From positions 1 to 64,000 of the IMG/VR virus record IMGVR_UViG_3300030117_007745: a stretch of 64,000 nucleotides of DNA. One strand, 5' to 3'. The notes under the pieces were generated by a model. It was not told where the DNA came from, searched no databases, and saw only the letters and a list, made by a program, of their open reading frames with translations. Origin of the DNA: a virus. The translations under genes were made by a program, and so were the position numbers. Positions 1 through 57,342 of this stretch are shown here, in pieces (position 1 is the stretch's first letter; each line of letters opens with the position of its first letter).

Positions 1-234
1 TCCTAAAATCAACAAATTAGCGATATTATACTCAAAATTAAATAGTTCTGTTAAGCCATTTATTCCGAACAAAAATATACCCACCCAAAAACCCGTACAC
101 ATGGGACAATGAATAAGTGCACCAAACCAATCAGATTTTTCCATTATCCAATTGCGCTGGTTTTCAAAAATTGTTCCGTAAACTAAGATTTGGGTCATGC
201 CCCAAGAAGCGAGAATAAAATATAAAAGCTCCAT
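1..234 (-). CDS. DUF1360-like membrane protein, 3' part missing
   Basis: The reading frame runs off the low-coordinate edge, so only the N-terminal 78 residues are visible. It begins with a hydrophobic segment (MELLYFILASWGMTQILV), followed by a CPMCTGFWVG motif (Cys 43 and 46) and a second hydrophobic stretch. A CxxC(x)GFW motif between two membrane segments is typical of the DUF1360 family, small inner-membrane proteins of unknown function found in bacteria and T4-like phages. The start codon shares an A with the stop of the preceding gene (TAATG), so translation is probably coupled. It is the last visible gene of the portal-linked group. Family assignment is by motif; function is unknown. 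Confidence 0.6.
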   Translation of the reverse strand, partial: MELLYFILASWGMTQILVYGTIFENQRNWIMEKSDWFGALIHCPMCTGFWVGIFLFGINGLTELFNFEYNIANLLILG

Positions 235-782
235 TATTCGTACCTATATACCCCTGCAAGTCCGTAATAGTAGCCCGGGTATCCCGGATTCAATGTTCCC
301 TTCTTTCTTTTTTGAGGAACCTCACCTAATTCTGTGCTGTCTTCCTTGTCGGGATTAAGTAACCTTTCTTCATCTTCATCTTCTACATACTCAAATGATT
401 GCATGTATTTTGCCTCATCTTCCATGAAGCCTGCTATATTGTAAAGAACAATCTCGGTAAGATTCTCTATTTTTTCTTCTTTTGGGTAGAGGGCCTCAAT
501 TGACCCAAACACGTTGGCTCCCTTTACTGTTTCTGGCATGATGACTCCCTTCTTGAAAAGGTAATCGAAAAGTCTGTTTTGACTTTTATAAACCAATTCT
601 CCAAAATCTTTTTTTGAATAGGCAGTTACTTTGCCAGTCTTTTCATCCAAAACTATATCCATATCGATATGATTAAAAACCATGATTTGGCCAGACAAGG
701 AGCGCTTCATTGCGAGTTTCCTTATCCTCTCTTGCATCACATCTAATGGTAACTGATTTTTAATACTAATTTTAATAGACAT
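234..782 (-). CDS. Hypothetical protein downstream of portal, possible head-assembly factor
   Basis: A 182-residue soluble protein with no family I recognise. The N-terminal half is mixed (SLSGQIMVFNHIDMDIVLD, then KKDFGELVYKSQ). A central acidic stretch (EYVEDEDEERLL) precedes a basic KRKK patch and a Gly/Tyr-rich tail (GYPGYYYGLAGVYRYE). There is no signal peptide or membrane segment. It starts one base after the stop of the 276-residue gene and ends overlapping the DUF1360 gene, so it belongs to the terminase-portal transcript. In T4 the genes after portal encode prohead core and protease proteins. A head-assembly role is inferred from position only; no protease motif is visible. Confidence 0.6.
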   Translation of the reverse strand: MSIKISIKNQLPLDVMQERIRKLAMKRSLSGQIMVFNHIDMDIVLDEKTGKVTAYSKKDFGELVYKSQNRLFDYLFKKGVIMPETVKGANVFGSIEALYPKEEKIENLTEIVLYNIAGFMEDEAKYMQSFEYVEDEDEERLLNPDKEDSTELGEVPQKRKKGTLNPGYPGYYYGLAGVYRYE

Positions 783-783
783 T

Positions 784-1614
784 TTATTTTTTTATTTCCT
801 TAGCTAGCTCTTGAATCTTTAGAACTTTTTTCAAGTCATCTTGATTCATTGGCTTTTTGCTGAGATTTTCAAGCATTGCAAGAACCGTGTCTGCTTTGCT
901 TTGCATATCTGTGTCTTCTTTAAATTCTTTAATCTCTTTTGCTTTTTGAATCTCTTCTTTTAGTCTTCCTATTTCTTCATTCAAATAAATTTTGAATTCT
1001 AGATTATCCCCAACCCCACTTGCAATGAAAGTAGAGAGCAGCTGCTTTTGTTCTTCCAGAAGACCAGAATATTCACTATTGAATCTATCCACAAATGATT
1101 TAAAAACTAAATTATCAATGTGTTTCAAGTTTTTGTGCTGTGTATTTTCGGTGGCCTCTACCATTAGTTGAAGCGCCTCCTCCTCTAACAAAACCCTCTC
1201 TTTTGCAGATAAGTTTAAATTATTAAAAACTTGATGAAGAGTAGCTAAATTTTTATAGTTTGGGACAAATGTTGTGAAGACATCTTTAGAAAGTTGCTTA
1301 TTGATTTTAGAAATCATTTGACTCTGTTCCGCAAAAATTTGTTTTTTATCCAAAACAGAATATTCTATTTTTGATTCTGATAAAATCTTTTCAGCGATAT
1401 TGGGCTTTATGTCCTTTGTCTCCAAGATGTTCTTGTATATTTTAACCTCGCGGCCCATCAAAGTATCTTGTGCAAAGTGCTCTTTTACAATATCTAAAAC
1501 AATTTGTCTTCGATCTTGATCTTTTTCAACTGTTGCTTTAGTCAATTCTCTGACGAGTGTTTCATAAAGAAAAATAGTATTTCTTTTTTTGTTGTGTTTA
1601 ATTTTCGCTGACAT
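784..1614 (-). CDS. Charged helical protein after portal, candidate prohead core or scaffold protein
   Basis: A 276-residue, strongly charged, probably all-helical protein. The N-terminus has a basic KHNKKRN patch followed by TIFLYETLVRELTKAT, a pattern I associate with a protein commonly encoded next to the portal in marine T4-like phages. The C-terminal third (EEIQKAKEIKEFKED through KKVLKIQELAKEIKK) looks coiled-coil. The start overlaps the portal stop by 17 bases and has GGAG about 9 bases upstream. T4 encodes prohead core proteins gp67, gp68 and gp22 just after portal, and gp22 is of similar length and charge. The scaffold role is inferred from position and composition; homology to gp22 is not demonstrated. 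Confidence 0.65.
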   Translation of the reverse strand: MSAKIKHNKKRNTIFLYETLVRELTKATVEKDQDRRQIVLDIVKEHFAQDTLMGREVKIYKNILETKDIKPNIAEKILSESKIEYSVLDKKQIFAEQSQMISKINKQLSKDVFTTFVPNYKNLATLHQVFNNLNLSAKERVLLEEEALQLMVEATENTQHKNLKHIDNLVFKSFVDRFNSEYSGLLEEQKQLLSTFIASGVGDNLEFKIYLNEEIGRLKEEIQKAKEIKEFKEDTDMQSKADTVLAMLENLSKKPMNQDDLKKVLKIQELAKEIKK

Positions 1615-3574
1615 TCTTTTTTGTCTCCAACTCTGTGATTAAAGATTTTACTCTACTGTTCAATTCAAATATCTTTTTCTCTTCTTCTCTATAATTAGAT
1701 TGCTTTTCCTCAGAAAGCCCTCTTGCTAATCTGGAAAGGTCTTGATAACCTTTGTTGATGTTTCTAGATGAACTGCTAGCTAGGTTGACTCCGGCATTGG
1801 CAGACATTTGTCTTTGCATTGCTCTTTTACCAGACAAATCGTTTCTTGGCTCATACCACTTTCCTTTAGATTTTGAGGTAGTAGTCATCTTTTTAATTCC
1901 AACTTTCTTCTCTAGTTTGTCATCACGATTGGCTGGTGGTACTGCTAAAAGATTTGTATCTGGCTCGTCTGCTGCTGGCTCGTCTGCTGCTGGCTCGTCT
2001 GCTGCTGGCTCGTCTTCGCCTCCTAGGTCCCCTAATCCGCCTTCATCTCCTCCCAATCCTCCCAGATCTTCATCATCGCCACCTCCCAAAAGGCCGCCTC
2101 CGCCGCCGCCTGCCAAATCTGCACCTTCAGCAGATTGATCAAGCTGTGCAGTTATCATTCTATCGTGGAACATTTCTCTTTGATTGCGAACAAACTCTTC
2201 CTCTGAGATTGAGAAAATATTATGTGCGATCCAGCGCTTTGAAAAGAATCCTTCAGAAGCGGCAGAGGCAACATCAAATTTTGTCCTCCACTGCTCCAAG
2301 TCCTGAAGTTCTGCGATCTTGGATGGATTGTTCATTGAAAGCTTGAAGGAAATAAGATCATTCTCTCTATACCCTAGAGTAAAAAGGTGAATGATGGCAA
2401 TTTTTTCTAGTTCTGTAATGACAACTCTTTGCAATCTCTGGATAGTTCTGGCGAAACGAATATCTTTTTGTGCCAATGTTGCCTTATCTTCATCTCCACC
2501 CTCTCCGCGAAAAAGATAAGATTGAGGAATCTTAAGTGCTGAAAATAATTTGTCTTTTAAATACTTTACGTCATCAATATCCCCAGTGTAAGTTCCGCCG
2601 GGCAAGCTCTCAACCCTTGTCGATTGTCCTCCACGGGTAGGAATAAAATAATCTTCATCAACAGACATCGGATTGTACCTAAGATCAACGCGGCCCGTAT
2701 CAGAATCAACAACTTGGTTTCTCTTCATAGAAGTCATGACCTTCTGCATATATTGCTCAATGTCATTTGGTGCCATATTCCCAACATCAACATAGAAAAC
2801 TCTTCTTTCTGGAGAACGGACTATTCTATAGGCCATCATTGCGTCTTCAAGCAAAGACAGTTGCCTAAATATTCTTCTAGAAGGATCAAGCACAGAGGTT
2901 CCGTAAGGAGCGTATTTATCATTTCCTAAGACCCGGAAATGTGCAATTTGCCAGTTTTCAAAAGTAAGTCCAGCAGAATTCCACTGATACTGAATGTAGT
3001 TTGGATTTGTCTTGTCTTCCCCCTCTAGTCGCTCAACTTCTCTTAGGGGGAGGCTAATAACATTTTCAATGCCATGTTTGTCATCGATATCCAAGTAAAG
3101 AATATAGTCTCCATACTTGCACATGGTTCTGCACCAATTAAATATGTTGTGTTCGATGTTTAGCACATTGTGGAAAAGAGAATTCAAGATAATTTTGATC
3201 TCTTCATTTTGACAATGAATGTTTAGCAGAGGGGCCATGTGGGATGATGTTGTCATTTCATCTGCATATATATCTAAAGCAGAAGCAATGATTGGTTCGT
3301 ATTCCATTTGATCAAAATCAATATATCTCTGAAGCCTTGACTGATTAAGATAAACATTGGCGGCCAAATCTGAAAAGGGATTATACTCCATTTTCTTGAA
3401 TTGTTTTCCAGAGGCTGATGTGAATCTGCTTGAATACTTATCCAAATCTGTTCTTCTATTCTGATTTACATTTTGTGCCCTATAATTAACAATGGGGCCG
3501 GAGAATAGTCTAGTCAGCCTCTTGAAAAGAGGGGATGCGGGATTTCTTACATTCTTTCCATTTTTTGGTGCCAT
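1598..3574 (-). CDS. 20: Portal vertex protein (T4 gp20-like) with long C-terminal extension
   Basis: Forms the dodecameric portal at the head vertex through which DNA is packaged and to which the neck attaches. Typical gp20 stretches include TSVLDPSRRIFRQLSLLEDA, the MAYRIVRSPERRVFYVDVGN segment, DEDYFIPTRGGQSTRVESLPGG-type sequence split around the crown, and FARTIQRLQRVVITELEKIA. The ATG at 3574 is preferred because AAAGGATAA lies just upstream; a longer frame would need TTG at 3598. That gives about 658 residues against roughly 524 for T4 gp20. The excess is C-terminal: a Gly-rich acidic linker, EPAAD repeats, then a charged helical tail (GLSEEKQSNYREEEKKIFEL). The gene begins 5 bases after the terminase stop. 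The family call is firm; the tail function is unknown. Confidence 0.93.
   Translation of the reverse strand: MAPKNGKNVRNPASPLFKRLTRLFSGPIVNYRAQNVNQNRRTDLDKYSSRFTSASGKQFKKMEYNPFSDLAANVYLNQSRLQRYIDFDQMEYEPIIASALDIYADEMTTSSHMAPLLNIHCQNEEIKIILNSLFHNVLNIEHNIFNWCRTMCKYGDYILYLDIDDKHGIENVISLPLREVERLEGEDKTNPNYIQYQWNSAGLTFENWQIAHFRVLGNDKYAPYGTSVLDPSRRIFRQLSLLEDAMMAYRIVRSPERRVFYVDVGNMAPNDIEQYMQKVMTSMKRNQVVDSDTGRVDLRYNPMSVDEDYFIPTRGGQSTRVESLPGGTYTGDIDDVKYLKDKLFSALKIPQSYLFRGEGGDEDKATLAQKDIRFARTIQRLQRVVITELEKIAIIHLFTLGYRENDLISFKLSMNNPSKIAELQDLEQWRTKFDVASAASEGFFSKRWIAHNIFSISEEEFVRNQREMFHDRMITAQLDQSAEGADLAGGGGGGLLGGGDDEDLGGLGGDEGGLGDLGGEDEPAADEPAADEPAADEPDTNLLAVPPANRDDKLEKKVGIKKMTTTSKSKGKWYEPRNDLSGKRAMQRQMSANAGVNLASSSSRNINKGYQDLSRLARGLSEEKQSNYREEEKKIFELNSRVKSLITELETKKNVSEN
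1962..2016. repeat. 15-bp in-frame tandem repeats in portal C-terminal linker
   Basis: Three complete 15-bp units (plus-strand form ggctcgtctgctgct) and a partial fourth encode the pentapeptide EPAAD repeated within the portal linker. The neighbouring 2016-2130 stretch encodes a Gly/Asp-rich low-complexity run. These repeats are coding, not a CRISPR or origin iteron array. Confidence 0.9.
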
Positions 3575-3579
3575 TATGT

Positions 3580-5154
3580 TTATCCTTTGAGAAGCCAAAC
3601 GTGTTTCATTTGTTGATCTATCTTATCACTTTTTGCGATTGGTTTATAGCCCTGCTGACCAGAGATTGACGTATTTAATTCACTTTTTGTCTTTGTCATA
3701 GTGCTCAGGAACATTTTGGTATATTCAATATCTCTTTGATTAGTTTCCAAAGCAGTGTCTCTGACCCAGCATCCGATTGCAAAAGCCATGACTAAATCAT
3801 CATTATACATCCTCATCGCTTGGGGCCGGCCATTCTGCCAAACAAATGTCTCTAACTCATTAAATAGTCTAGCAGAATATATTCTAACTAGTTTATTTCT
3901 AATGAATTCTTCCATTTTTGCTACGATCAGCGGTCTTGTCTTGGAGGTAGTTGAGAACCCAGCGACAGCGTTTGATTGAGTTTCTCCCAAATATTGTTCA
4001 ACGTATTCGTGAGTTGACTTAATTGAATAGTATAGGTTGGGATATGCCAAGTCTCTGAGTTTATCCAATACCGCAAAACCAACAGAGTTGTTCTCGATGA
4101 CCATTAGACACTCGCCAAATTCCCTTCCAACTTCATTTAACATATTGGCAAACAAGTCTGGTGTAATTTTTGATTTGTATTCTGCGACAATTTCCATTGT
4201 TTCGAGCTTAAATATGTGAAAAACAGAACTATCTTTATCATCACCACGAGCGACATCAGCCACGAGAAGGTATGTAGAGCCGGGTTGATACTCTTCCCAA
4301 ATCCAAAAATTTCTGTCAAAACCAGTTTTGTATTTGGGATCTTTGAGGCCGGCCTTTATTGTTGCCATGTCATCCGGATGAATAACAGTTTCTCCAGACA
4401 TGTTGAAATTGCACTGATACTCTTGGGCAATTTGTCTTTGGGACATGTTGCGTGTTTCTTCCTCAAACCATTCTTGGTCACGATCAGGATGAACATGCCA
4501 TGGCAAAACAGTAGGGAAGAAGTCGTTAATGCCTGCCTCTGCGTCAGTGTATGTTTGATGAAACCAGTTTCCCACACCATTTGGGGTAGATAGGGCGATG
4601 CAGCGACCCCCTGTTGACAAGGTGGGGTAGAGACCAGTCCATAGTTCTTCAAGGCCTTCTACGTGTGCAGCCTCGTCAATAACAAGAAGAGACAAGGCCT
4701 CTGATCGACCTGCATCTGCTGAAGTTGTAGATGCTTTGATTTGAGAGCCATTCGATAATTCAAATGAAGTTCTATTATCGATTGATATATTAGATATTTG
4801 TATCCACTCTGGTAGGTTTTTAATGATGGCTTTGACTTTTTTAACTAAGTTCGCTGCTGTCTGAAACTTGGTGGCCATAACTAAAATGTTCTTGTCTCGG
4901 TGAAATAGCATCATCCAAGAAACATAAGCAGCAGTAATCGTGGATATTCCTAGCTGACGGCCTTTCAAAATGACATTGAAGCGATGATCATTAAAATCTT
5001 GCAGAAGTTGTGTTTGGAAATCATAGGTTTTGAAAGGGACGAGACCCCTAATCGGATGAGAAATCCTTGCATAATTGTTAATGAAAAAGTTTGGATCCTT
5101 TCCACACTTAACTATTTCAGCAAGGATTTCTTTTTTAGATATTTTGTAAGACAT
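3580..5154 (-). CDS. 17: Terminase large subunit (T4 gp17-like packaging ATPase and nuclease)
   Basis: A 524-residue DNA-packaging motor that translocates DNA through the portal and cuts concatemers. ATPase motifs are Walker A GRQLGIST (about 65-72), Walker B LLVIDEA (156-162) and coupling motif STPNG (189-193). The RNase H-fold nuclease shows LLVADVARGDDKD (Asp 300), VIENN (Glu 354) and YNDDLVMAFAIG (Asp 452-453). All key residues are intact and length is normal for the family. The gene is directly upstream of portal with a 5-base gap, unlike T4 where sheath and tube genes intervene. No clear ribosome binding site precedes the ATG at 5154; an AATAAT-like element sits about 10 bases upstream. 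Assignment is secure. Confidence 0.97.
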   Translation of the reverse strand: MSYKISKKEILAEIVKCGKDPNFFINNYARISHPIRGLVPFKTYDFQTQLLQDFNDHRFNVILKGRQLGISTITAAYVSWMMLFHRDKNILVMATKFQTAANLVKKVKAIIKNLPEWIQISNISIDNRTSFELSNGSQIKASTTSADAGRSEALSLLVIDEAAHVEGLEELWTGLYPTLSTGGRCIALSTPNGVGNWFHQTYTDAEAGINDFFPTVLPWHVHPDRDQEWFEEETRNMSQRQIAQEYQCNFNMSGETVIHPDDMATIKAGLKDPKYKTGFDRNFWIWEEYQPGSTYLLVADVARGDDKDSSVFHIFKLETMEIVAEYKSKITPDLFANMLNEVGREFGECLMVIENNSVGFAVLDKLRDLAYPNLYYSIKSTHEYVEQYLGETQSNAVAGFSTTSKTRPLIVAKMEEFIRNKLVRIYSARLFNELETFVWQNGRPQAMRMYNDDLVMAFAIGCWVRDTALETNQRDIEYTKMFLSTMTKTKSELNTSISGQQGYKPIAKSDKIDQQMKHVWLLKG

Positions 5155-6956: not shown

Positions 6957-7392
6957 TTGATTTGATCTCCACAGCGACAGCAAAGACTGCTATGGAAAGA
7001 ACTATACCACCAAGCACACCACCGGCAAGCCACCAATGGCTGTTATCGTTTGGTCTTTCTAATGCTAGCTCTTGTAGTCGCTTGTTCTCCTCGTCTTTTA
7101 TATTGAGAAGATTTGTGTATTTATCGGTTGCCGAGTTTAGCTTGATCTCGCTGATCTTTAGATCTAGTTCTAGCTTGGCCTTTAATATTTCTATCTCTCT
7201 ATCCATTTCAAGCGCACACTCTTCTGCGGTGTATTTCTGCTCTGTTAGAACTTTGGCTGCTGCTTTGGCATCCATTAGGACACCAGTAAAGGGTGCTCGC
7301 TTGCCTTTCTGTATTTCAGTTATAACTCCCTCTTGCGCCCAAGCAGGGAAAGCAAAGAGTATAACTAAAAATATGGATAGTAGTTGTTTCAT
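6943..7392 (-). CDS. Exported membrane-anchored protein with coiled coil, function unknown
   Basis: 149 residues. A Sec-type signal peptide (MKQLLSIFLVILFAFPAWA, probable cleavage after AWA) is followed by EGVITEIQKGKRAPFTGVLM. A long charged coiled coil follows at about 60-115, then one transmembrane helix (WWLAGGVLGGIVLSIAVFAVAV) near the C-terminus. The KGxxAPFxGVLM pattern recurs, in my memory, in small phage envelope proteins near lysis genes. Topology (exported coil plus membrane anchor) would allow a spanin-like or envelope-modifying role, but the anchor is C-terminal, unlike classical Rz. The start overlaps the previous stop as ATGA. Confidence 0.6.
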   Translation of the reverse strand: MKQLLSIFLVILFAFPAWAQEGVITEIQKGKRAPFTGVLMDAKAAAKVLTEQKYTAEECALEMDREIEILKAKLELDLKISEIKLNSATDKYTNLLNIKDEENKRLQELALERPNDNSHWWLAGGVLGGIVLSIAVFAVAVEIKSNGDR

Positions 7393-7784
7393 ATGATTGA
7401 GTGCGCCTCTTCTTCAGCATATTCGTATTCTTCATCACTATATGTGCCAAATGTATCCTCAATTTCTTGTTGTGTTATTTCTCGGTAAGTTAAGCCGTCT
7501 CCACTAATGTTTTGGGTTATATCTCTAACTGGCATTCTTCCACGACAATCTATAGCTTCATCTGTATCAGGATCATAGACAAAAACATGCTGTATGTCGC
7601 CTGATTTATCAAAAATGCCGTAAGTCGGCAGTTCTAACATATCTGCCACTACATTAGCCAAGAGAGAGCAGTCACCTCTTTTAAAATCAATATACTCGGA
7701 GGGCTGTGTTTCTTCTTCCCCACCCAACTCAATATCTATACCTTCATTTAAATACTGTCGCCAGTTTTCAAGTAGTTGTTTCAT
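7389..7784 (-). CDS. Candidate capsid-targeted protein with Cys-His-Asp protease-like core
   Basis: 131 residues. The first 14 (MKQLLENWRQYLNE) match the N-termini of two neighbouring genes and end in LNE, which fits the L/I-x-E consensus of the T4 prohead protease. The body has RGDCSLLANVVADML (Cys 39), HVFVYDPDTDEAIDC (His 66, Asp 71) and RGRMPVRD. The Cys-helix, then His-strand, then Asp order is that of papain or transglutaminase-fold enzymes. The C-terminus is acidic. Strong AGAGG spacing precedes the ATG at 7784. The fold and packaging into the capsid are inferences from motif order and the shared leader, not demonstrated. Confidence 0.65.
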   Translation of the reverse strand: MKQLLENWRQYLNEGIDIELGGEEETQPSEYIDFKRGDCSLLANVVADMLELPTYGIFDKSGDIQHVFVYDPDTDEAIDCRGRMPVRDITQNISGDGLTYREITQQEIEDTFGTYSDEEYEYAEEEAHSII

Positions 7785-7796
7785 TTTAGCCTCTTA

Positions 7797-7892
7797 CTAG
7801 CAGCAAGCACATGCCTCGCAGGTACAACATCCACAACAGCAGCAGCAGTGATCTTTAAATAGGTTTATTAATCTGTGTAATATCTTTTTCAT
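7797..7892 (-). CDS. 31-residue cysteine-rich peptide
   Basis: A short gene encoding an amphipathic N-terminus (MKKILHRLINLFKDH) followed by 16 residues of which 11 are Cys, including a run of five consecutive Cys, then Gly, CC, TCEAC and ACC. It has a consensus ribosome binding site, GGAGGAATAAAAAATG, with 8 bases to the ATG. The site is formed by the last codons of the preceding gene. It sits in a 100-base gap between two genes with shared leaders, and its own first five residues match MKKIL of the gene upstream. The cysteine pattern suggests metal binding or thiol chemistry. Expression is inferred from the ribosome binding site and fit between neighbours. Confidence 0.6.
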   Translation of the reverse strand: MKKILHRLINLFKDHCCCCCGCCTCEACACC

Positions 7893-7895
7893 TTT

Positions 7896-8279
7896 TTATT
7901 CCTCCGCTTTTACGCAGTTTCTGTATGTCTTACCATACATCTTTTTTGTTTTTCTTTTTGGATGAGTCTTGTAACCTTTTTGGCAGCGTTCATCCAAGTC
8001 GTCTTCTGGCTCTTCGCTGGGAAGTCTTTCTTGGTCGTATGGAGCATCTTGCTGTATATACCGAAGGGCTACGGCTGCAAGATCTTCTCCCGCATCGTGT
8101 TGCATATAGACCATTACTTCTTCGCTTGATGGATCATACTCGACAATATACGAATCGTCGTTGTCCATTATCATTTCAAAGTATTCTAAATCGCCAGCAG
8201 GAGTCATCTTTCTTACACGATTATCCTCGCCTTCATTTTCGTTCAAATACTCTTTCCACTCATTCAAAATCTTTTTCAT
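7896..8279 (-). CDS. Candidate capsid-targeted acidic protein with basic C-terminal motif
   Basis: 127 residues. The leader MKKILNEWKEYLNE aligns with those of the genes at 7389 and 8276 (Trp 8, aromatic 11, Leu 12) and ends in an LNE prohead-protease-like site. The middle is acidic and strand-rich (DDSYIVEYDPSSEEVMVYMQ). The C-terminus switches to a very basic segment between two Cys: DERCQKGYKTHP, RKTKKMYGKTYRNCVK. I associate this CQKGY...RNCVK ending with several marine phage proteins of unknown function; it could bind nucleic acid. The start overlaps the previous stop as ATGA. The role as packaged cargo is inferred. Confidence 0.65.
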   Translation of the reverse strand: MKKILNEWKEYLNENEGEDNRVRKMTPAGDLEYFEMIMDNDDSYIVEYDPSSEEVMVYMQHDAGEDLAAVALRYIQQDAPYDQERLPSEEPEDDLDERCQKGYKTHPKRKTKKMYGKTYRNCVKAEE

Positions 8280-8890
8280 TTCTTGACTAACTCCTTATTT
8301 ACAATATCATAACCTTCCACAACTCCTACCTTTTCGTAGTCAAAGCCGGGGAGTAGGGCGATCTTCTGCTCTGGGAACTTGCCATTCACAATGAACGAGC
8401 AAGCCTGCCCTACTACCTCTGTGAAGAGGGCTGGATGAGATGCTGGTGGCATTGTCTGTATGTGTGCGTTATAGGAGGCAATCTCGCCTTTAGCATCAAA
8501 CTGTGTGCCTCGCTGGATGTGAGACATAAAGTCGTGGACTGCCCTAAACTTTGCGTTTGTTTGTGGGTCAAAGATGTCGTGCTCTGCATCAAGGGTAGAA
8601 ATCCTTAACACGCCATTTTGCTTAACATCTTGCTTTAGCTCCTCTGCGTCGGCATAGGGATGCTCTTCGACAAACTGAACATCAACAACACCTTCAATCC
8701 TTTTGAACATCTTGTCAACAAAGGGCTTCATGGCCTCAAAAGATGACACAGCACCTTGATCAAACTTGGGTGCTCTTGCGTATGCTGCTGCAACCAACTC
8801 ACAATACTTATCCCAGCCGTTTGGGCCGGGCTTCAGCATTAGCTTCTCGCTCATCAAGAACTTTCGCCAGTTTTCAAGTATGAGTTTCAT
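8276..8890 (-). CDS. Conserved hypothetical protein with capsid-targeting-like leader
   Basis: 204 residues. The leader MKLILENWRKFLMSE aligns with those of the two downstream genes, although its final site reads MSE rather than L/I-x-E. The body has WDKYCELVAAAYARAP, then FRAVHDFMSHIQRGTQFD and SYNAHIQTMPP, with three conserved-looking His and an FTEVVGQACSFIVNG segment. The HDxxxH arrangement could ligate metal, but I recognise no enzyme family. A GGGG run lies about 9 bases before the ATG. The gene is between the KLKQ protein and the basic-tailed protein in the same transcript. Unknown function; packaging in the head is inferred from the leader. Confidence 0.6.
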   Translation of the reverse strand: MKLILENWRKFLMSEKLMLKPGPNGWDKYCELVAAAYARAPKFDQGAVSSFEAMKPFVDKMFKRIEGVVDVQFVEEHPYADAEELKQDVKQNGVLRISTLDAEHDIFDPQTNAKFRAVHDFMSHIQRGTQFDAKGEIASYNAHIQTMPPASHPALFTEVVGQACSFIVNGKFPEQKIALLPGFDYEKVGVVEGYDIVNKELVKK

Positions 8891-8902
8891 TCGTATGCCC
8901 CG

Positions 8903-9271
8903 TTAAAGATTGACGACGAAAGAGTAATTGGCCAAGGCCGGATGCTTAATCGCAACTGGCTGATCAAATAAGTCCTTTGGCACAAATACCTTATCACTAA
9001 AGCGAAGCATTTTCACCGGAGACTCTTCGGTCAAAGTCAAAGTAAGTGTTATGGGGACTGGGACTCCTGAAGACTTATCCACTCCAGATATCGTAGCTGG
9101 TTTTTTCTCTTCGTACCCGGATATCTTGAGTTCCGGTGGGTCTTGTATCAGATTAGCAAATTCATACAAATCTACAATCACCCCTTCTTCACCCTTTTTT
9201 TGAAAGCCCTCATATACTTTTTTGATCTCTTCTTTGATGATTTGTTTTAGTTTTGTTTTTGCAATTTTCAT
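8903..9271 (-). CDS. Small protein with KLKQIIKEE leader, first gene of packaging-region transcript
   Basis: 122 residues. The N-terminus (MKIAKTKLKQIIKEEIKKVY) is a basic amphipathic helix of a kind I recall on unrelated marine phage proteins. It contains IKE at residues 12-14, matching the prohead protease L/I-x-E consensus. The rest is strand-rich and Pro-rich (ITLTLTLTEESPVKML; DLFDQPVAIKHPALANYSF), probably a small beta domain. AAGGAGAAAGAAATG is a strong start. It follows the promoter at 9345-9373, so it is the first full gene of that transcript. Function is unknown. Confidence 0.65.
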   Translation of the reverse strand: MKIAKTKLKQIIKEEIKKVYEGFQKKGEEGVIVDLYEFANLIQDPPELKISGYEEKKPATISGVDKSSGVPVPITLTLTLTEESPVKMLRFSDKVFVPKDLFDQPVAIKHPALANYSFVVNL

Positions 9272-14409: not shown

Positions 14410-16209
14410 TTATTTTTGAAGCCTAGGATAGATGCCTGACCTTAAATCCACGTCTCCAAACAAAATAACTCGGTTGTCCCCAGTTGGAACTCTAACTGAG
14501 CTTTTTACTCGATTCCCGTTTACTCTGGTTGAAGTTTTTTGATATTGACTTGCGTCTAGAGGGATATGAGTAATTTTAGTTTCCACAAGCGGTACAACCT
14601 CCTCCGTTGTGCAAATGCCATCATAATTTGTGTCTGCCCAAACATACAGTTTCCCAAATTCCTTGTCTTTAACGCTAACAGTTCCATCTTGGTTGGAGTC
14701 CATAGAGGCTAGGTGAGTAAACCCGCCTGAGTAGTTTGGCGATGTTCCGAAAAACTCTGTCCCATTGTCTGCAATTCCATTAGAGTTTTTGTCAACGAAA
14801 AGAAAACCATCACCACTAAGCCAGCTAACTGCTGTTTTTCTTTTGCCAAACATTGAAAAATTAACTCCATTTTCAACTGATGTGACATCAAAGCGGCCGT
14901 TATTATTCAAATCAATAACAATAGGGTCTGAAACATTGCATGGCACGACTTTAAAAATCTTTACAGCCGCCAAAGCAAACTCATCTTGTATACCCTCTTG
15001 TAAGGCGTTACTATAGTCCGTTTGAGCTTGAGCATACATAATTTCATCATCACTATTGACTGGCACGTAATCATCACACAGGGGGTTTTGCTCCATAGCC
15101 TGACTAATAGTATTCATGGAGTCGTTAAATACTGGATCTAAGATTGACTGGTCTGCTTGACAGACTTCAATTGGGTCTGACATTAGGGGGTAATCTCCTG
15201 TATATCCGTTAGTTGTCAGCCAATTATTCATACTATTAATAAAATGTTGCCTGCCGACAATAAGGCCTTTTTCTGCCGAGCTTTTTACAGGCGATGGATT
15301 GTTGTTGCATAGCTGCTTTGACTTAAGATCAACCCTAACCATCACGCGAGCTTGCTCTAAGCCACTAACCGCGCCCTGCTCAAACCAAAAATCTTGCTCA
15401 CTAAGGTCGGGGTTGTAGCTATCCCTACTAGCACTCAAGGTACTGTAAAGTTTAGAATAAGACTCTGATCGCGCTTGATCTACCAAATACTCACATGCAT
15501 AACCATTCATAACCCCTTGGTTGTTATAAAATTCAACATAAGGGCACGGAGAGGTTTCCGGAAGGGTCTCATCCTCATTTGTAATTTCGTAATTAGGATC
15601 AAGCCCCAAGTCTTCTAATGCCAAAGAGACTTGAGATAAATAAAGATCTTTTCCTATACCTAGGCCTCCAAAGATATTGTCTCTCAAAATTTCAATATCT
15701 GCGAACTCGTCCACTGTGAGATCTTCTAAGGTCACTTCGTCGTCAGTAGTTTCAACCTCAACTTGCTCCTGCTCATCGGTGGAATCGACCTCTGTTTCAG
15801 GGGTTGTTTCCTCTGTTTCAGAGGTTGTTTCCTCTGTTTCAGGGGTTGTTTCCTCTGTTTCGGGGGTTGTTTCCTCTGTTTCAGGGGTTGTTTCCTCTGT
15901 TTCAGGGGTTGTTTCCTCTGTTTCAGGGGTTGTTTCCTCTGTTTCAGACGGAACTGTGTTAGTTTCATTGTTTTCGCTATTGTTTTCCACTTCAGAGGCT
16001 TGGTCTGTCTCGGTACCGGCTTCTTGCGGAGTTAAGGTAGTTTCTCCTACCTCATTAGTTGTAGTTGTAGTTGTGGTTGTTGCGGTGTTATCTGTTGCTC
16101 CCGTGAATTGGATTGTTTTTTGCTCTCCAGTTTCTCCAGTTGTTGTTTCCGTATCCTCACAAGCAACCATGCAAAATACAGCCATAGCTGCGACAATATA
16201 GTTTCTCAT
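14410..16209 (-). CDS. Repeat-rich lipoprotein with calcium-binding domain
   Basis: 599 residues. A type II signal peptide ends in the lipobox MVAC (Cys 17), so the mature protein should be lipid-anchored in the host envelope. Residues about 20-150 are a Thr/Glu-rich stalk containing eight ETEETT units. A middle Cys-containing domain follows. The last 175 residues repeat Asp-rich loops: DPIVIDLNNNGRFD, DGFLFVDKNSNGIADNG, TEFFG, DSNQDGTVSVKD and WADTNYDGICTTEE. These match the EF-hand-like calcium-binding module found in RTX and adhesin-type proteins. AAAAAGGAGAATAAATG provides the start. It lies between primase and a terminator. A surface role such as blocking superinfection is plausible but inferred. 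Confidence 0.8.
   Translation of the reverse strand: MRNYIVAAMAVFCMVACEDTETTTGETGEQKTIQFTGATDNTATTTTTTTTNEVGETTLTPQEAGTETDQASEVENNSENNETNTVPSETEETTPETEETTPETEETTPETEETTPETEETTPETEETTSETEETTPETEVDSTDEQEQVEVETTDDEVTLEDLTVDEFADIEILRDNIFGGLGIGKDLYLSQVSLALEDLGLDPNYEITNEDETLPETSPCPYVEFYNNQGVMNGYACEYLVDQARSESYSKLYSTLSASRDSYNPDLSEQDFWFEQGAVSGLEQARVMVRVDLKSKQLCNNNPSPVKSSAEKGLIVGRQHFINSMNNWLTTNGYTGDYPLMSDPIEVCQADQSILDPVFNDSMNTISQAMEQNPLCDDYVPVNSDDEIMYAQAQTDYSNALQEGIQDEFALAAVKIFKVVPCNVSDPIVIDLNNNGRFDVTSVENGVNFSMFGKRKTAVSWLSGDGFLFVDKNSNGIADNGTEFFGTSPNYSGGFTHLASMDSNQDGTVSVKDKEFGKLYVWADTNYDGICTTEEVVPLVETKITHIPLDASQYQKTSTRVNGNRVKSSVRVPTGDNRVILFGDVDLRSGIYPRLQK
15791..15947. repeat. 21-bp in-frame tandem repeats in lipoprotein stalk
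   Basis: Seven 21-bp units (plus-strand form tctgtttcaggggttgtttcc, with a few substitutions) and a partial eighth encode the heptapeptide PETEETT repeated in the lipoprotein. There are no unique spacers, so this is not a CRISPR array. Copy number may vary by slippage. Confidence 0.92.
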
Positions 16210-29797: not shown

Positions 29798-32700
29798 CTA
29801 TTCCTCTGGTGGTTCAAAAACTACTTCTGATTCAATTTGAGCTAATTCAACAAGAGAGAAAAAATCATATGGCCAATTATAACTGTAAGTTAATTCTGCC
29901 TCTGGATTTGATGATACCCCTTGCAATTCTTTAAGTGCGGTGAAAGAAAATCCTTTTGCAGTCTCTGATTGTTGAGTGACGTTCATAAAGTTATTTCTCG
30001 CTTTTTGTTTTACTTTAAAAACCATCCATCTTATATTATTTGGCAATTGACCTTCTTTATATTGGCCAAAGAATTCGTAATTAACCCCTATTTGATGTTC
30101 AATCGCAACAGAAGCTTTTTCTGCTGTTCTAGAAATTTTAGGCATCAAGTTCTGCCAAATATCAGCGAGGTCCTGCTTGTCAAGCGTATGATTAAACTCG
30201 AAAATATACATAACGAATGGATCAATGTTTGGATTATTTAAAAAGTCCATTTGTGGAGGAAGAGAAAATTTGCTCATTTTTTCAATCATTTGTGTAATTG
30301 ATGTTTGCCCTATGTCATTCTTAGCTCCAAAGTCGCCGGCCAACAAAGCCTTATTACTAGTTTCATGGTTTGTTTTTTGCTTTAAGAACATATCTGGATC
30401 TATAGAAAAGAACTTTCCCTTTTCATCAATTGGGACAGCGATAATAGCCTCAGATATTATTTTCTTTGATCTGATTTTTCCTACTCTTTCTTTGCTCGCC
30501 TTAAATCCGCAGACATCAATTAGAGATCCGCTTAATTCTTTTACGCCGCCACCTTGTGTATCGTTTAATATCTGAGGAAAGCTTTCTTTAAGTTGCAAGA
30601 ATATTCCTTCAGAACCAGATGGTATCACACCATAGCCCTTCCAGATTCCTCTAGTAAAATATTTTTCATTTCCATGGCCAATTGCTGCACCGAGCGAACC
30701 TGTGTCCATATGGGCCAGATTAACTGATGGGCACTCAAACTTTGTTTCAATAATCCAAGCGTCATTTGTGCCTTGGACGACAGGGGTTGTAGCACTTTTA
30801 GCCTTAAATGTTCCATCAGGATTCTTTTCTGTGCCGTATTCAACCTCTTTTAGTGTGAGCTGGCCGAACAGATTTACAGATGAACTTAACTGCATCTGTG
30901 CAATCCCCGCAGCAAAATTATTTCTATATGAATCTTCCTGTAGTGTCTTGGCTAATTGATTTTCGTTTTGATAGCTAGTAGAAATTTTTGAGTTAGATAA
31001 TATCTCCTCCAAAGTAAATTTGGCAGCTTCTCCAGTCTGCATATCTCTTACTTCATGCGGCTTAAAGGCTATTCTGGCCCTAGAGGTTCCATAGAAATAT
31101 GGCGGAGTATGCGGAGCATATGTTGGATCTTGTGCTCTAAAAGCTGCATATGGTACACTACCAGTACCTGTTGATCCATAAACAAGGCCGTGGGCTTTAT
31201 AAGAAGGTCCATAGTGCATTCCCCTAGCTCCAACTCTTGTGTTCAAAATTCCATCCCCAGTAACTACTATAAGGTTATCAGTTAAGAATGGGGCGTATTT
31301 TATTCCGCCATCATACCTGAATGTGTCTGGGCCCGGGCCTTCATAGGATACAAAGTCTCCAGTTTTATATAATAAAACATCCATATAATAAACCGACCCA
31401 GAGACCATAGACTTAAAGTCTTTTTCTGGCTTTGAAATAAAGCTAGTTAAAGTCCCATCATCTAAGAAAAAATCGACCGATTCTGCAAAGAAGTTATTCG
31501 CTGCTAAGGAATATTTAGGATCGCTTCCGCCACTCCATTCAAAAAATAGCTGCGGCTGAGATCCTGTTGCGCGACTGTCTGCTGCCTCTAAAGAAACATA
31601 GGGATAGCTTGTAGATTGCCCAACGTAGTAATTTTCTAAGAAAAGGGCTCCACCTACAGATCCAGTAAAGTTAGGATAAGCAAAAAATACTTTTGATGAA
31701 AGATTATTGCCATCAACTGCGCCAGTTACCGATGAGGACAAGGGTAAAAACTGGTCCGGATCTAAAATGGCTTCAAAAGGGAAGCTATAATTTGGTACAG
31801 TTTGGTATTGATTAGAAACAAACATAGAACCACTGGTTGGTTTGCTAACCCCCAAATTAGTATTTGCAACAACCTGCGGAGCAGAGGAAGTGTGAACTGG
31901 GTAGCTAACTGCAATACCAGACTTTATTGTATTGAAAAATACTCCGGGCGCGAAAAACGGCTGATAAAGAGCTGCTAGTCTTTCTTGATCTCCGTCTCTC
32001 CTATTGGACCCGCTTATGAAGGGTGCATAAGATGACGAGAAGATATGTCCTAACTGAACAGACCTTAAGGCTGGGTAAAAGCCTTGATATGGCAATAATT
32101 TCTTTACGGCATTTGCCTCCAATCTAATTTTTGATGCAAATGCCGTATCGTTTTTCTTGTGATCTTCTTGAATAACAGAAAAATGCTTCATAAAATCACT
32201 ATGAGAATATACTTTAAAGAAATCTGGGTTGAAAGATCCAGACTCATTAGTTGCACTTGAACTAACAGACAAAGATGCTCCAATTAAATCTAAAAACTTA
32301 TTGTTGTCAGCAAAAAACCCTTCTTTTAAATAATAATCTATATGATCGGTGATTCTAAATTCTGGCAATACCGTATAATCTTTTGCTATTCTTCTAATAT
32401 CTTCTGAATAATCTTCATAAGAGTTGAACCAAGGACTCTTCCCACTTAAAACATCTGTTCTGTAGGGCGGTATCAAGTGAAGCGATGCAGAGGGAGAATT
32501 TCTCCTAGGGACCATCGCTCCCGACATTATCATATTGGGATATTCAAATTGGAAAGAGGCCGTTGGCTTGAAACTTAAACCTGTCGTTGTTATAAAGTTT
32601 GGGACTGGCCCAGATGCAGTTGGGGCTCCAAGTTCGCGCACTTTGCCTTGCAAATTTATGCCAAGCAAGTTGTAAATGTATCCAGCGCAAGACAATTCGC

Positions 32701-35700
32701 CATTTTTATTTAGATTAGCGAATCTACTGGTAGTGTTAGTGCTTAGAGTAGCTCCAGAAGCATGTAGCGGGGCCCAGTAATAGGGGTTATATGGTCCGCC
32801 GCTATAAGATGCAGATATTTGATGCAGATCGTAAAATGGCTCTTCGGCATCTAATGGCCAAATGCTCATGTCTGTTAATCCAAAGAATGATGAACCGCTA
32901 GCAATAATTAAGCCCTCTGCGTTTCTTGCTACTGCATCTGTTCTTAAACGATCATCAATGTTATCTTTCCAAAAGGCAAGAGAATCCCCTAAGCGAATAT
33001 CAAAATTTGTTTGCCCCTTGGATACAGTGTAGTTTTCTCGACCCCTTGCCTTGGCAAGACCGGTATTTCTTTCTCTTGGGAAAACGACTTCTCTATAGCA
33101 CAATTTTAAAATTGAAGGCTTCAAATCATCTGGTAGTTCATTTGATATGTAAGATTTCTTAATAAAGTTATATGCTAATTTTATATCTTTATTATCTTTC
33201 TTAAAATCAAGTATGTCATCTATTTTGTTGTTTGTAAATGTTCCCAGCATGTTAGCGTAAGAGTAATCAAGCTCAACCATGTTTGTCCCTTGGCCATCAT
33301 CTTCTTTAACGAGAATATCATGTTCCAGTGGCTTATATTTAAAAGACACCATTGGCTCAGTAAAATTATTAAGCGTTTGCGTCTTTATCTTCTGCAACTT
33401 TAGATCGCCCGGAGAAATACTTGTCTTTTCTGTTAAGACCGAAAACGTGTTGTGCTTTACAAAATTTCTTATAAGTGGGTGATATGAAGACCTGCTTAGA
33501 TCTCTTGTGGAAAATCCATATGCTCCATTTCTGTTCAACAAGATCGAATTCAAAAGAAGCGTTGAATCTAATTGTTGGTTTGTTGGGAACAAATCTATAT
33601 TTGCACTTGACTCTAAAAGATTAGAGCCTGTCGTCAATGTGTCAACTACAACAGAATTAAGGCCAACAAAATCAACATTTATTAGCTCACCATTGGCCTG
33701 CTCTGCACCAGTTAGGCTAGCACTAACAAAAACTAAATCTGTTGCTGCATAGCTTTTGTTCTGGTAGTCTTTTTCAGAAAATCCAAAAGGAAACGCAATA
33801 GTTGAAGAGGAAATCCAAGCATATTGTTGATCACTTTGTGGAATCTGATGTTGTATAAAATAATTATCATATACAGAGCTTGTTAAAGTGTTTCCAAATA
33901 TATCTTGCCTCTTTATATATTTTCTTCCGTTTCTTTGAGTTTTTTTGAAGGATGCAGACGGAGAACCTATTACACTGTCATATCCACCGAATGCTGTATG
34001 TCTGGTTAAAAGAGTGCGTAATGGCTGTCTAACTGACAGATTTCTAAAGGGCATTGCGTTATACGGACTATATACCTCTGATTCATAGTTCAAAAATGCT
34101 GGCCCATTGACTTCTGGGCCGCCGGGTGCAGAAAATCTACTAACAAATATATGCTCACTCTTTCCTTTAACTGGAATAGCCCAATCGTATGCACCTGAAA
34201 CTGAAGGTGTTCCGATGGACTCAAATGACGCAGTAGAGATACCATTGTTTTTGAAGAAATACCTGTTATTGGTGTCTCTGCCTGCTATTTGAACAATCTG
34301 ATAGTCCTTTTCATAGTTACCATTATAGGCCTTTACCTGCCCGAGTTCATTAAACGGTGGCAAACTAGTTTGTGATGGAATGAAGCTGCTAGTTGTTGAC
34401 TTAATATTTTTAATATTTAATGGCCTTTTAGCAGCCTCTTCTCTAAGCATCGTTGCTCTGGGGGCGTTTACACCGCCGGGTAAATCATAGATATTATAAA
34501 AATCAAAATTAATCCCATTTGGATTGGCTGTAATGGTTCTTAAAGCATACCAAGCCTCTGGCTTTACGTGTGGGCTTTGTCCTATGTGCAAGTGAAGGCC
34601 CGAATGTCTATAGGCATATCCTCCAACATTCTGCTCTGTAAATGGACCTTGCATGGGAATATCTTTGTTATCTAGATAGTAATCTTGGAGATGCTGGGTT
34701 GATACTTCATAGCCAATGTGCCAAGGGGTGCTTCCCGTTATAAAAGGATTATCTGTCGAAGAGCTTTGAAATGACAGTGGAGCATATTTTCTACCATCGT
34801 ATCCTCGTTCTGTCGATATTGATGGTATTTGAACTTTAAATTCTGGTTTGAATTTTCTATTTGGATCAATCTTGTCAGGAGTATTAGTATTTGGTTGTCT
34901 TTCAATGGTGTTTGTATTGAAAGATATCCTATTGCCTGAACCGGCAGGAGATTCAGCGAAAACTACATTTCTAAAATTTCTATCTTTTTTGGGTCGAGAC
35001 CTATTTTGATCATTAAAAGCGCCCTTGTCGCCGGAATCTACTGAGAAATCTAAAGCTGCACCGCCCGCAGCCTTAACTAATGGATTTAAAGAATCTTCGT
35101 CTAAAACATCACTATATTTACTTAAATAGTATGAAAATGCTGACATATAGGCTTGGTTTATTGCATTGTCTATATCGGCATTACCAGTGCTTTTAGGAGT
35201 TTCTAATGAAAATGGCACTCTATTTCTCCACCAACTAAGGCTTTCTTTTTCATCGAATCTTCCGTCGTATTCTAAAATACCAACTTCAATAGGTGCTGAA
35301 TTGAATTCCCAGCCATCCGCTCTTCTGAGGTAGATGCCAGAGAAGTCAAAGCCTTCAAGACCCCTGATGACCTTGACTGGTGTGGTGATCCTAACTTCGT
35401 AAACCCCCTCTTCGTTTGTAATAATATCACGAAAATGAATGTCGTCTTTTAGTTGAGTTACTTTTAACTTTTTAGGACTTCTTTTATCAAGAGTGGGGTA
35501 TTTGTGCTTATATTTACTTCTTTCAAAAACGTGGCTTTCAATTACATTTCTGACCGTGCTAAATCTAGATGAAGCTGGAACTACCTGTTGTATCACTTGG
35601 CCAATACTGGTGTCTAACCACTTAAAATACTCTATGTAACGATCCAAATCAGGAACGTTGCCAACTCTTTCAAAAAATATGTTTCTTATTTTTTCTAGCT

Positions 35701-38700
35701 CTTTATATCGATCTCTGTATTTGTTGACTGGTGCACCTATCAAATCCTCCATGGCAGAGGCCTCTTTGGAGGCAGCTATGAAGTTTAACATCTCTTCCGA
35801 TATGCTTTGATACATGCTTTTTTCTACTGAGAAAGAAAAGGTTATTGGGCGGGTTCTTCTGGTAAAGAATTCATCGTCCCTGTTCAATACCTTTATTGCA
35901 TCTTGATTGTTTAAATTTTCTGGCACTTGTTGTCTATAAGAATGAACATACTCTCTTGAAATTGAACCAGTTTGGTTGTTTCCAGTTTCAAAAAATGCAC
36001 CCCGCCCAGTGTGTTGTTTTTCAAGCAAATTAGAAATGTGGAGGCCATATCTATTGTCTCCAGACCCAGATGAGAAATCCTGCACTTCAAATCCACCATT
36101 GTGCTCTCCAGTGTCAGACCCTGTGATATTGTCAAAATCCCAATTCATTGCTAATGTTTTTATTCTTGGAACTTCGACTGGATATGCGGCAGTTACTCCT
36201 CCACTAAAGGTGGCCACCCCGTCATCGCCTTCTCCTCCACTAGCGAGGGCAGTTGCATCGCCCCCAGTGGCAGTTTGGAACGTTCTAGACTCGGGGTTGG
36301 AGATGATATTAATGTTTTTCCCCACTACAGCTCCAGTATTTATTGCTTCAACCAGTTCCGCTGTTGTAAGATTAACGGGAGTAAAACCGTTATTGGTTCC
36401 GTCATTTGGCTTGACGTTAATAAATAATGGGTCTGTGGTGCTGGAAAATGAAAGGAGCACTGTATCTGACGGATTGTTTCCGGCGCTGAGGACAGTGAGT
36501 TTAATTTGTTTACCATTCCTCTCTTGTCCTGCCGCAGTAGAAGTGAAAACAATGGGAGTGGTGGTGTCTAATGTCGCAGTTGCTGCTACCGTCTGACGGT
36601 CCTCTAAAAGATACGCGCTTTGCATTGAGTTGTAAACACCATAATTTTTTGGATCCATGGCATGAGATTTCAATTCATCGTTAGTTAGCGGCACTCCCCA
36701 ATATCTACAGGACGATATTTTTGCATTAGTTCCAACTAACAAGCTACCAGTAAAGTTTGTTCTGTGTGCTCCAATATAAATTCTTTTGTTTGCTACGAGA
36801 TAGCTGAGTCTGGTGGAGAGGGGCATACGTTTCTTTATATCAAAACTATTTTGTATGATATCGCCAACCATGTTATATCCAGAGAATTGTACTGTGAGAT
36901 CTCCAAATTCTGATCCGCTTAACATTCCAATATTCGGATACCTACTGGGATACATTCTTACTGATAGATTCCACCTCTCATTATTATAAACTTTTTTATA
37001 TGTCTCAGTTGTTATTTCAGATATAAGTCCTTCTGCGGCGGCATTTGGGTTTGACGATGTTAAAATAAATCTGACATTTTCACTTTCTGGTGCGTTTCGG
37101 CTGGCCTTTTCTTTTACAGCATAAACTTGAAAATTTCCGTAGTCTCTGAGGTGATTTGTTGTGTCACCCGGAGTCGATGAGGCTTCTGTTATTGCCTCGT
37201 GAATTCCAAAGAGAGATGCAGATAAAGTAGGAAATTCATAAAATCTAAAACTCGGGTCATTTATTGCTGGTTGTTTAGGAAATATAACTTCCGTCTCCAA
37301 GGTAAAGCCTGTCTCACTATCCCAGCCGACCACGCTTGAGCCAGTTATAAAGGAAACAGAATTAGCATTATTAGAGGCTGTCATCTGGTAAACGGTTGCA
37401 CCATGTCTGGTGTAGTAATTAAAATCTGCATATGACTTTCTTGACGTTTTGGATTTAAAGTTGCCCTTTAAATCCAATTCGGCATTGTCAGCATAAAAAT
37501 TTATACTATACAGATCGTCGTCAACTCCAAAACATCTCATAATGTTTGTAATTGATTTTTCAGTCCCTTTTGTCTTGTTAATAAACAATAGATTATTATA
37601 AAGATTTGTATAAATCTCATTTTTTATATCTGTTAGTTTCCTATCAAATTCTCTATCATCATCCCTGTTGGCTAGAGCTTCAAAAGCGCTAGCATTTGAG
37701 AATATTTCTGGTACTACAAAGCCTGCATTCGACAATAATTTATCTGCAAAAGGAAGAGGCTTGTTTAAACTGCCGGACGATGAGCCTGATACATATGCTA
37801 TGTCCTTTAGCCTAGGCAATGATTGAATTTGAAGAAACAGATTATCAAAATAACTGGCCATTATTTGATTTAATTTTAATATCTCATTTCTTCCCTTTTG
37901 CTCATCCTCATCTATTATCCAGCTTGGCAACATGTTATACAAATACATGGAGTTTCTGCCATCAAATTCTCTACCTTTATAGCGAACATCACTTTCGTAG
38001 CTAACTACTGATGGGTGGAAATTGTAAATAATTGGGTCTTTGAATTCTCTTAATGCAGCATTTGCCTCAACGATGGCAGAGCCAGTATATCTCATTGCCG
38101 CTGTATAATTGCTTATGTATCCATTTGAAACTCTGCCCGAATAATCTAGAGCAACTCTATCGATTGAAGATGTGAGAGTTGCTCCCTCATTAAATTTAAA
38201 ATAAACACCCAAGTTAACAGGGTTTATGTCTTCATAAAATTTTGAACTTGCAGCACCAAAGTCGCTGTTAGTTCCACCTGCCACTTGTTTAAACCAATTA
38301 AATTTAATATCATCAGAGTCTCTATGGATTGTCCAAAATCTAAACTCATCAATAAGCGATCCAGTTAACGATCCATAGCCTTCGTACACGGGCCCCGCGA
38401 TACGGGCAGCTATACTAGGCGGGCGCTTGTAGGCTCCAATAGTAGAATTGAAAGATCCTGTGGATACGGGCTGTACTCTGCTTCCAGTAACTGTAGTTTC
38501 GATCAAATTACCGTTTGCGTAAAGCTTTATTTCTAGGTTATCTGTAGTAGGATGATTTTCAACTGTAAAAGCTATATGATTCCAATCTGCCAAATCAATT
38601 CCAAGAGAAGATGTTAAATCTTTTGATCCGATTGGCGCTCTCTGTACTCCACTTGTGCCACTCATATAAGTAACATGAAACAAGGAGTCTTGCACGTATT

Positions 38701-56385: not shown

Positions 56386-57342
56386 CTACCATTTAAAATT
56401 ATCTATGTAGAATTTTACCATCTTTTCTACTTCTTCGTTAAATATTTTTTCAGGTTTCCAGCCCAAAGATCGCAACTTGTCATCATTTAGGGCATACCTT
56501 ACGTCTTGTCCAAGCCTTTTGTAGCCAAGATCTACATATTGTTGCCAATTCTCGTCTGTTCCATGGTAAGCTTTGATGACTTTTCTAACAGTTTCCCTGT
56601 TTTCTTGCTCAAATCCGCCGGCGATGTTGTAAATTTCGTTTGTTTTTCCACTATTTATGATAGTTACAACTGCATTTGCCGTATCTTCAGCATGTAACCA
56701 GTTTCTTATAGGCTTACCCTCATCATGAAGTCTAATTTTTTTACCTCTCATTAAAAGTTTGACTGTTAAAGGGACCAGTTTCTCTGGATACTGGTAAGAG
56801 CCATAGTTGTTTGTAGGTCGAAGGATAATATACTCTAATCCATAAGTTCTTGCCCAAGATTTTACAAGCATATCTGCGGCCGCTTTGGAGGCAGAGTATG
56901 GATTACTAGGGTTTAGGGGGTCAGTTTCTATGTGTTCTCCGTCTGCTATGTCACCATACACTTCATCAGTACTAAATTGCAAAAATACGGGCCTTTCTAC
57001 AACATTATTTGGCTTTTTTTTGATTAATTCTAATAAATTGTGCACTCCATCGACATTTGTTCTTAAAAATTCTTTACTATCAAGAATACTATTGCCAACA
57101 TGAGTTTCTGCCGCAACATTAATGACATAATCGCAATCTGGTAAGCTCTTTAGCTCTGTTATATCCTCATCAATAAAAGTAAAGTTATCTTTATAATGAG
57201 TTTTGAATTTTCTGATCAAACTAGGGTTTGATGCGTATGTTTTGTTGTCTATACCATACACTTTCCAGCCTTGACCTAAGCACTTATTCGTCACATGAGA
57301 CCCAATAAACCCCAAACAACCTGTTATAACAACTAATTTCAT
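56386..57342 (-). CDS. dTDP-glucose 4,6-dehydratase-like enzyme (RmlB family)
   Basis: 318 residues, extended short-chain dehydrogenase. The NAD-binding motif is GCLGFIG (8-14). STDEVYGD (124-131) holds the Thr-Asp-Glu active-site triplet typical of RmlB, and NPYSASKAAADMLV carries the Tyr 149/Lys 153 pair. ILRPTNNYGSYQYPEKLVPL is also an RmlB hallmark. The enzyme would oxidise, dehydrate and reduce an NDP-hexose to its 4-keto-6-deoxy form. GGAG precedes the ATG. It is the last gene of the sugar island. The nucleotide carried by its substrate cannot be read from sequence with certainty. Confidence 0.88.
   Translation of the reverse strand: MKLVVITGCLGFIGSHVTNKCLGQGWKVYGIDNKTYASNPSLIRKFKTHYKDNFTFIDEDITELKSLPDCDYVINVAAETHVGNSILDSKEFLRTNVDGVHNLLELIKKKPNNVVERPVFLQFSTDEVYGDIADGEHIETDPLNPSNPYSASKAAADMLVKSWARTYGLEYIILRPTNNYGSYQYPEKLVPLTVKLLMRGKKIRLHDEGKPIRNWLHAEDTANAVVTIINSGKTNEIYNIAGGFEQENRETVRKVIKAYHGTDENWQQYVDLGYKRLGQDVRYALNDDKLRSLGWKPEKIFNEEVEKMVKFYIDNFKW

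Follow-up and report, generated by a model that had tools for sequence, protein, structure and literature searches.

Unrelated proteins of a marine T4-type myophage, and of its relatives, share a short N-terminus that is probably a T4-type capsid targeting sequence (CTS) in a lineage-specific form: it would be cut by the S77 prohead protease, and the packed cargo would be ejected into the host. The stretch of DNA analysed (hereafter, the window) consists of positions 1-64000 of a 112,654-base IMG/VR virus record, and contains the following head genes:

234..1614, minus strand: two conserved genes, flanked in relatives (by synteny) by the portal and the S77 prohead protease
1598..3598, minus strand: T4-type portal gp20 (PF07230, E=4.6e-83)
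3580..5154, minus strand: terminase large subunit of the gp17 type (PF03237 match)

The nearest cultured terminase is that of the Flavobacterium phage immuto, with 46% identity. The head module, marked by the terminase gene, sits downstream of the four leader genes of the window. As the earlier note described, these four open reading frames are all on the minus strand, with a purine-rich stretch before each start:

7389-7784, minus strand: ORF 1, N-terminus MKQLLENWRQYLNEG
7743..7784, minus strand: class B leader MKQLLENWRQYLNE, predicted cut after E14 (LNE/G junction)
7389..7742, minus strand: cargo 1, 117 aa, with Cys39, His66, Asp79 and a CRG motif, without a Pfam or PHROG family above threshold
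7896-8279, minus strand: ORF 2, N-terminus MKKILNEWKEYLNEN
8238..8279, minus strand: class B leader MKKILNEWKEYLNE, predicted cut between LNE and N
7896..8237, minus strand: cargo 2, whose C-terminal module ERCQKGYKTHPKRKTKKMYGKTYRNCVK is basic, contains Cys and is common to other leader proteins
8276-8890, minus strand: ORF 3, N-terminus MKLILENWRKFLMSEK
8846..8890, minus strand: class B leader MKLILENWRKFLMSE, predicted cut at the MSE/K junction, displaced by one residue
8276..8845, minus strand: cargo 3, with a PHROG 3170-like domain
8903-9271, minus strand: ORF 4, N-terminus MKIAKTKLKQIIKEEI
9230..9271, minus strand: class A leader MKIAKTKLKQIIKE(E), predicted cut between IKE and E
8903..9229, minus strand: cargo 4, with one homologue found (L154 89-418), which also has a class A leader

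The alignment at Trp8, an aromatic residue at 11 and Leu12, first noticed in the earlier note, was recovered in the first three ORFs. As it had also reported, three of the four leaders end in L/I-x-E (LNE, LNE and IKE), while the remaining one (ORF 3, 8276-8890) ends in MSE, one residue further on, and past the leader the divergence is complete, the bodies of the window having no mutual resemblance. The fourth leader (8903-9271) is of a second class, with spacing identical to that of the first. The rest of the record contains seven more leader genes, for a total of about 11: L082 8593-9729 (N-terminus MSNIHKNWKEFIINEA), L083 2071-2985 (N-terminus MKELMESWRKFSADVLNE), and L083 1211-1846, 1843-2070, 3230-3922, 5677-6114 and 6854-7225. 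Elsewhere in the window we observed a tail/baseplate region with two giant genes (29798-39544, 3,248 aa, and 43771-52245, 2,824 aa), a predicted lipoprotein with an ETEETTP repeat tract (14410-16209), and a run of sugar-nucleotide/glycosyl genes (56386-64000, continuing in L081) including epimerases, a nucleotidyltransferase, a dioxygenase-like gene and an aminotransferase.

In general, the leader comprises 14-18 residues at the extreme N-terminus and occurs in two classes, B (MKxLLENWRxYLNE) and A (MKITKxxLKQIIKEE), which align without gaps at W/L8, aromatic/I11, L/I12 and E14. To estimate chance, we took contigs selected by terminase similarity only, plus the own record, with 1,621 distinct genes in total. 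Residue 8 is the start of the motif Wxx[FY][LI]xE in 10 of these genes (expected 0.01) and of Lxx[IVL][IL]xEE in 44 (expected 0.04), the expected counts being derived from the internal rate; both motifs are nearly absent from other positions. Sharing of the leader among unrelated bodies is thus far above chance in the TerL-selected genomes, with 54 genes against ~0.05 expected, numbers that are approximate because the gene caller was simple and some loci overlap, the contrast being several hundredfold.

The leader is not a habit of marine phages generally, a possibility that we rejected on the basis of a podophage control: in marine T7-like podophage terminase loci, neither motif was found at residue 8 (0/1,279 genes). 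Likewise, neither motif was found among 1,102 genes of T4-like cyanophage terminase loci. These cyanophages carry the T4 form MK[ST]FxxF[IL]xE at position 4, on few genes near TerL, and the T4-spacing motif at position 4 was found in 0 of 1,009 genes within the clade studied here. The class B pattern occurs in at least 120 IMG/VR stretches; among 84,980 prokaryote genomes it gave one match, on a WOR-3 MAG contig, where the leader protein (L749 1747-2391) resembles the L082 8593-9729 cargo and the stretch is probably of phage origin. The leader peptides were not found in the paper text of the open-access literature, and in tblastn against cultured phages the leader alone was too short a query to inform.

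Then, we considered the position of the leader genes and the presence of the protease. The leader genes near TerL, 28 in all, share its strand without exception, with 22 of them upstream and six within 3-5 kb downstream, in the protease/core-gene region. The gene order in relatives is terminase, portal, two to three small genes, S77 protease, conserved core gene, scaffold and Gp23 capsid, and in phage immuto it is terminase, gp20, prohead core serine protease and Gp23 capsid. The earlier note had advised looking for the protease gene outside the window. In the own record PF03420 gave no match, as the record ends inside the head module: it breaks off past the two small genes (234-1614), which would put the protease immediately outside, on the far side of position 1, and the syntenic gene is found in the near relative G005. 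The synteny of this gene pair was drawn from G001, G002, G004, G005, G010, G013 and G021, together with phage immuto. A T4-type S77 prohead protease is encoded by 31 of the 40 long contigs, and is present in all 31 that have the head module. In the nine S77-less contigs the head module is incomplete: eight are also without T4 portal and Terminase_6N, while the ninth, G018, breaks off in the portal, and the own record breaks off shortly after it. No S78 protease was found in the 24 records tested.

Other features of the head region deserve mention. A conserved small gene lies directly after the S77 protease (L410 10888-11277 and orthologues; MKKSELKxxLKPLIKECIxEVLxEEG) and looks like a core protein. 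The word RxKxLAGI ends scaffolds (e.g., L410 12049-13029) and some protease-adjacent proteins. We rejected a C-terminal 'LAGI' as a second tag, since it is found on scaffolds and other proteins and on 0 strict leader proteins; its presence also in an immuto N-terminus suggests a docking motif. Furthermore, immuto has, upstream of the terminase, other N-termini ending in [L/I]xE (L372 11675-12139, 17631-18632 and 18632-18931), namely RMQKLAGIITES, FNLRSFLTEN and FDLKKFLVEN, which are perhaps further leader forms.

The leader behaves as a module. A check for unrelated bodies sharing it, foreseen in the earlier note, sorted 517 leader proteins into 303 body groups, including 243 singletons, and the body groups largely differ between related genomes. 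Homologous bodies were also found behind either leader class, as in the L167/L245 proteins (69% identical), in GNAT acetyltransferases, and in the basic C-terminal module, which follows a class B leader in the window (7896-8279) and a class A leader in the near relative L013 (6847-7218; 82% over 38 aa). This basic Cys module, ERCQKGYKTHPxxKTKKMYGKTYRNCVK, ends leader proteins of both classes (window 7899-8000; L013 6847-7218; L284 2114-2431; L313 12878-13570), and is possibly a DNA-binding tail. The profile of one cargo family caught dozens of unrelated bodies through the leader, and family searches must therefore mask it.

No function was assignable from matches for the four cargoes of the window. 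The Cys-His-Asp protease-like core proposed for cargo 1 found no support: the residues are there, but the AlphaFold model (pLDDT 73) matched no PDB fold (best E=0.4), no Pfam family was above threshold, and the two significant matches of the model are both uncharacterised phage/viral proteins. The domain of cargo 3 (mean pLDDT of the structure model, 56) also forms part of 433-aa proteins without a leader in Bxz1-like mycobacteriophages, a homologue that has no direct bearing on the leader question.

Among the body representatives of the relatives, Pfam and PHROG matches include ART-PolyVal ADP-ribosyltransferase, protein kinase, GNAT, S-adenosylmethionine lyase, Zeta toxin/AAA kinases, NUDIX, HAD nucleotidase, polynucleotide kinase, tRNA_lig_CPD (2H-type phosphodiesterase), ParB-like, DnaJ, YkuD and pentapeptide repeats; each family name is a match and not a tested function. 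The leader-bearing 2H-type phosphodiesterases with HxT motifs (PF08302) are located at L277 2038-2490, L279 5181-5633 and L288 1225-1671. Alt of T4 is itself an ADP-ribosyltransferase. In T4, NUDIX, polynucleotide kinase and deoxyribonucleotidase are not known to be packaged, and the deoxyribonucleotidase of the T4-like Pelagibacter phage HTVC008M has no clear leader. Judging from these matches, the cargo of the relatives resembles proteins useful immediately after injection, with nucleotide enzymes also present, and this repertoire suggests a role in host takeover.

The cargo could instead consist of assembly factors or core components, brought to the prohead core or scaffold by the leader and then degraded or kept as structural parts, not injected. 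This would agree with the resemblance between class A and the N-terminus of the conserved protease-adjacent gene, with the leader genes that adjoin the protease, and with the class A bodies, which are mostly small and without recognised function. However, more than 300 unrelated body groups, many with enzyme domains and differing between related genomes, are unlike conserved assembly factors, and we consider this explanation unlikely, albeit worth keeping in mind.

We then investigated the cut site. The IMG/VR query was limited to the opening eight codons of class B, and the downstream residues were subsequently read. In this first-half scan, class B residue 14 is E in 79% and D in 1% of cases, and from residue 15 onward E and D have similar frequencies. 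Among class A leaders, E is found in 76 cases versus 3 for D. In conservation, Glu is thus strongly preferred to Asp at the predicted P1. Overall, [LI]xE is present within residues 11-18 in 63 of 75 leaders, against a shuffle mean of 9.8 and a maximum of 17. The canonical [LI]xE near residue 14 is missing from about a sixth of class B leaders. E14 is missing in 16 leaders, and 13 of these keep a displaced [LIVMF]xE (e.g., MKLLFENWRKYLLTE followed by A, and MKVLLENWKSFTDTLTE followed by S), versus 3.0 in shuffles, a value of 13 being reached by 0 of 2000 shuffles. As the leaders are related by descent, these counts are inflated; despite this kinship, a site that returns after displacement is hard to explain otherwise. 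ORF 3 of the window (LMSE) is one such displaced case: its orthologues, 87-92% identical over the whole protein, have MSE, LNE, MNE or LDE at the same junction. Moreover, the propeptide of the major capsid protein in the clade carries an invariant LL[K/R]E immediately ahead of the mature shell domain, which is consistent with the specificity of the protease, the exact cut there being presumed from T4.

These features can be compared to those of known systems. In T4, the CTS of IPI, IPII, IPIII and Alt is cut by gp21 (Peptidase S77), and IPII and IPIII start with MKTYQEFIAE, as read from the T4 record. Amber-suppressor work attributed targeting to residues 4 and 7 and processing to residues 8 and 10, with Asp at residue 10 blocking processing (PMC9026906). 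Shifted by four and without gaps, Y4, F7, I8 and E10 of the T4 CTS correspond to W/L8, aromatic/I11, L/I12 and E14 of the marine leader. Both are short and N-terminal (the 14-18 residues of the marine leader fall within the 10-19 of T4-type CTS propeptides), with Lys2, aromatics or hydrophobics at a three-residue interval, L/I-x-E and diverse bodies, and, like T4, the marine lineage has a T4-type portal, the major capsid protein Gp23 and an S77 protease. Unlike the T4 CTS, the marine leader is four residues longer, has W or L at 8 and two classes side by side, and is carried in each genome by proteins of greater number and variety (about 11 here). It shows no identity to MKTYQEFIAE at the T4 spacing, its hydrophobic pair being at 8/11 and not at 4/7. 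The T4-like cyanophage leaders share the logic and the cut site, but at position 4 instead of 8.

More distant parallels exist. The N-terminal 30 residues of P1 DarB, an antirestriction protein believed to enter the cell, send a reporter into heads; unlike the marine leader, the Dar proteins are without a common consensus or a demonstrated L/I-x-E cut, and P1 has another head protease (PMC9024508). In SPN3US/phiKZ, inner head and ejection proteins have N-terminal propeptides cut after Glu, and the first 15 residues are identical on two diverged paralogues; unlike the marine leader, several of these propeptides exceed 100 residues, and the motif is A/S-x-E (PMC5694885). The earlier note had spoken of a T4-like targeting and cleavage leader distinct from that of T4, a view now strongly supported by position, spacing, cut-site conservation and leader swapping, as well as by late-operon location, phage-only distribution and the S77 protease of the relatives.

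This evidence also bears on the idea of a docking or localisation peptide for a non-capsid complex of the phage or host (replisome, RNA polymerase or membrane). Several cargoes are nucleotide or nucleic-acid enzymes, and an amphipathic-helix leader could bind other partners. Such a peptide would not be expected to show a constrained cut site (E over D, reappearing after displacement), to match the determinants of the T4 CTS, or to be placed strictly on the late strand beside head genes and be absent from podophages, and we hold this explanation to be very unlikely.

At the DNA level, synonymous codons in the leader are mostly free, with conservation little beyond codon usage, which indicates that the leader is conserved as a peptide; a DNA-level repeat as the source of the similarity was rejected on this basis. 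A functionless mobile 5' module (translation start and first codons), recently duplicated and spread by recombination, could account for the slight excess of identical codons (0.55-0.64 versus about 0.45 from codon usage), but with specific residues constrained among free synonymous codons, and with W8, F11 and the cut site persisting in ORF 3 orthologues whose bodies are 88-92% identical and whose other leader positions vary, we give it almost no credit.

Returning to the capsid targeting sequence, the leader and the cut site are supported by the sequences, from which we infer a docking partner, cleavage and a host-takeover role and, on good grounds, packing and injection. The leader would form an amphipathic helix, with hydrophobics at 8 and 11, that binds the scaffold or core during prohead assembly, and its docking would build the attached protein into the prohead. 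The S77 protease would then cut after [L/I]xE, at residue 14 or at a site at most four residues downstream, and the leader would depart, while the mature cargo would stay in the head with the DNA and be ejected into the host in the following round of infection. Unrelated genes could gain packaging by acquiring the leader, and the phages would in this way carry a fast-changing set of pre-made effectors.

More broadly, we lean towards the view that the leader is a protein 'postal code': each oceanic T4-superfamily lineage would have its own leader form and a common [L/I]xE site, packing exchangeable effectors. The clade studied here would use W/L at 8, cyanophages position 4, and flavophages possibly other forms still. 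Among phage proteins, the injected ones encounter host defences first. Beyond T4, P1 and a few jumbo phages, packed proteins are hard to tell from sequence, and the leader makes finding them a pattern search. It had been suggested that the CTS gives T4-like phages an evolutionary means of loading diverse proteins (PMC9026906), and our finding bears this out at scale. From it come definite predictions of cut sites and cargo for very abundant marine phages, together with named candidate enzymes of host takeover; if the postal-code reading is true, hundreds of injected effectors would be directly readable from metagenomes.
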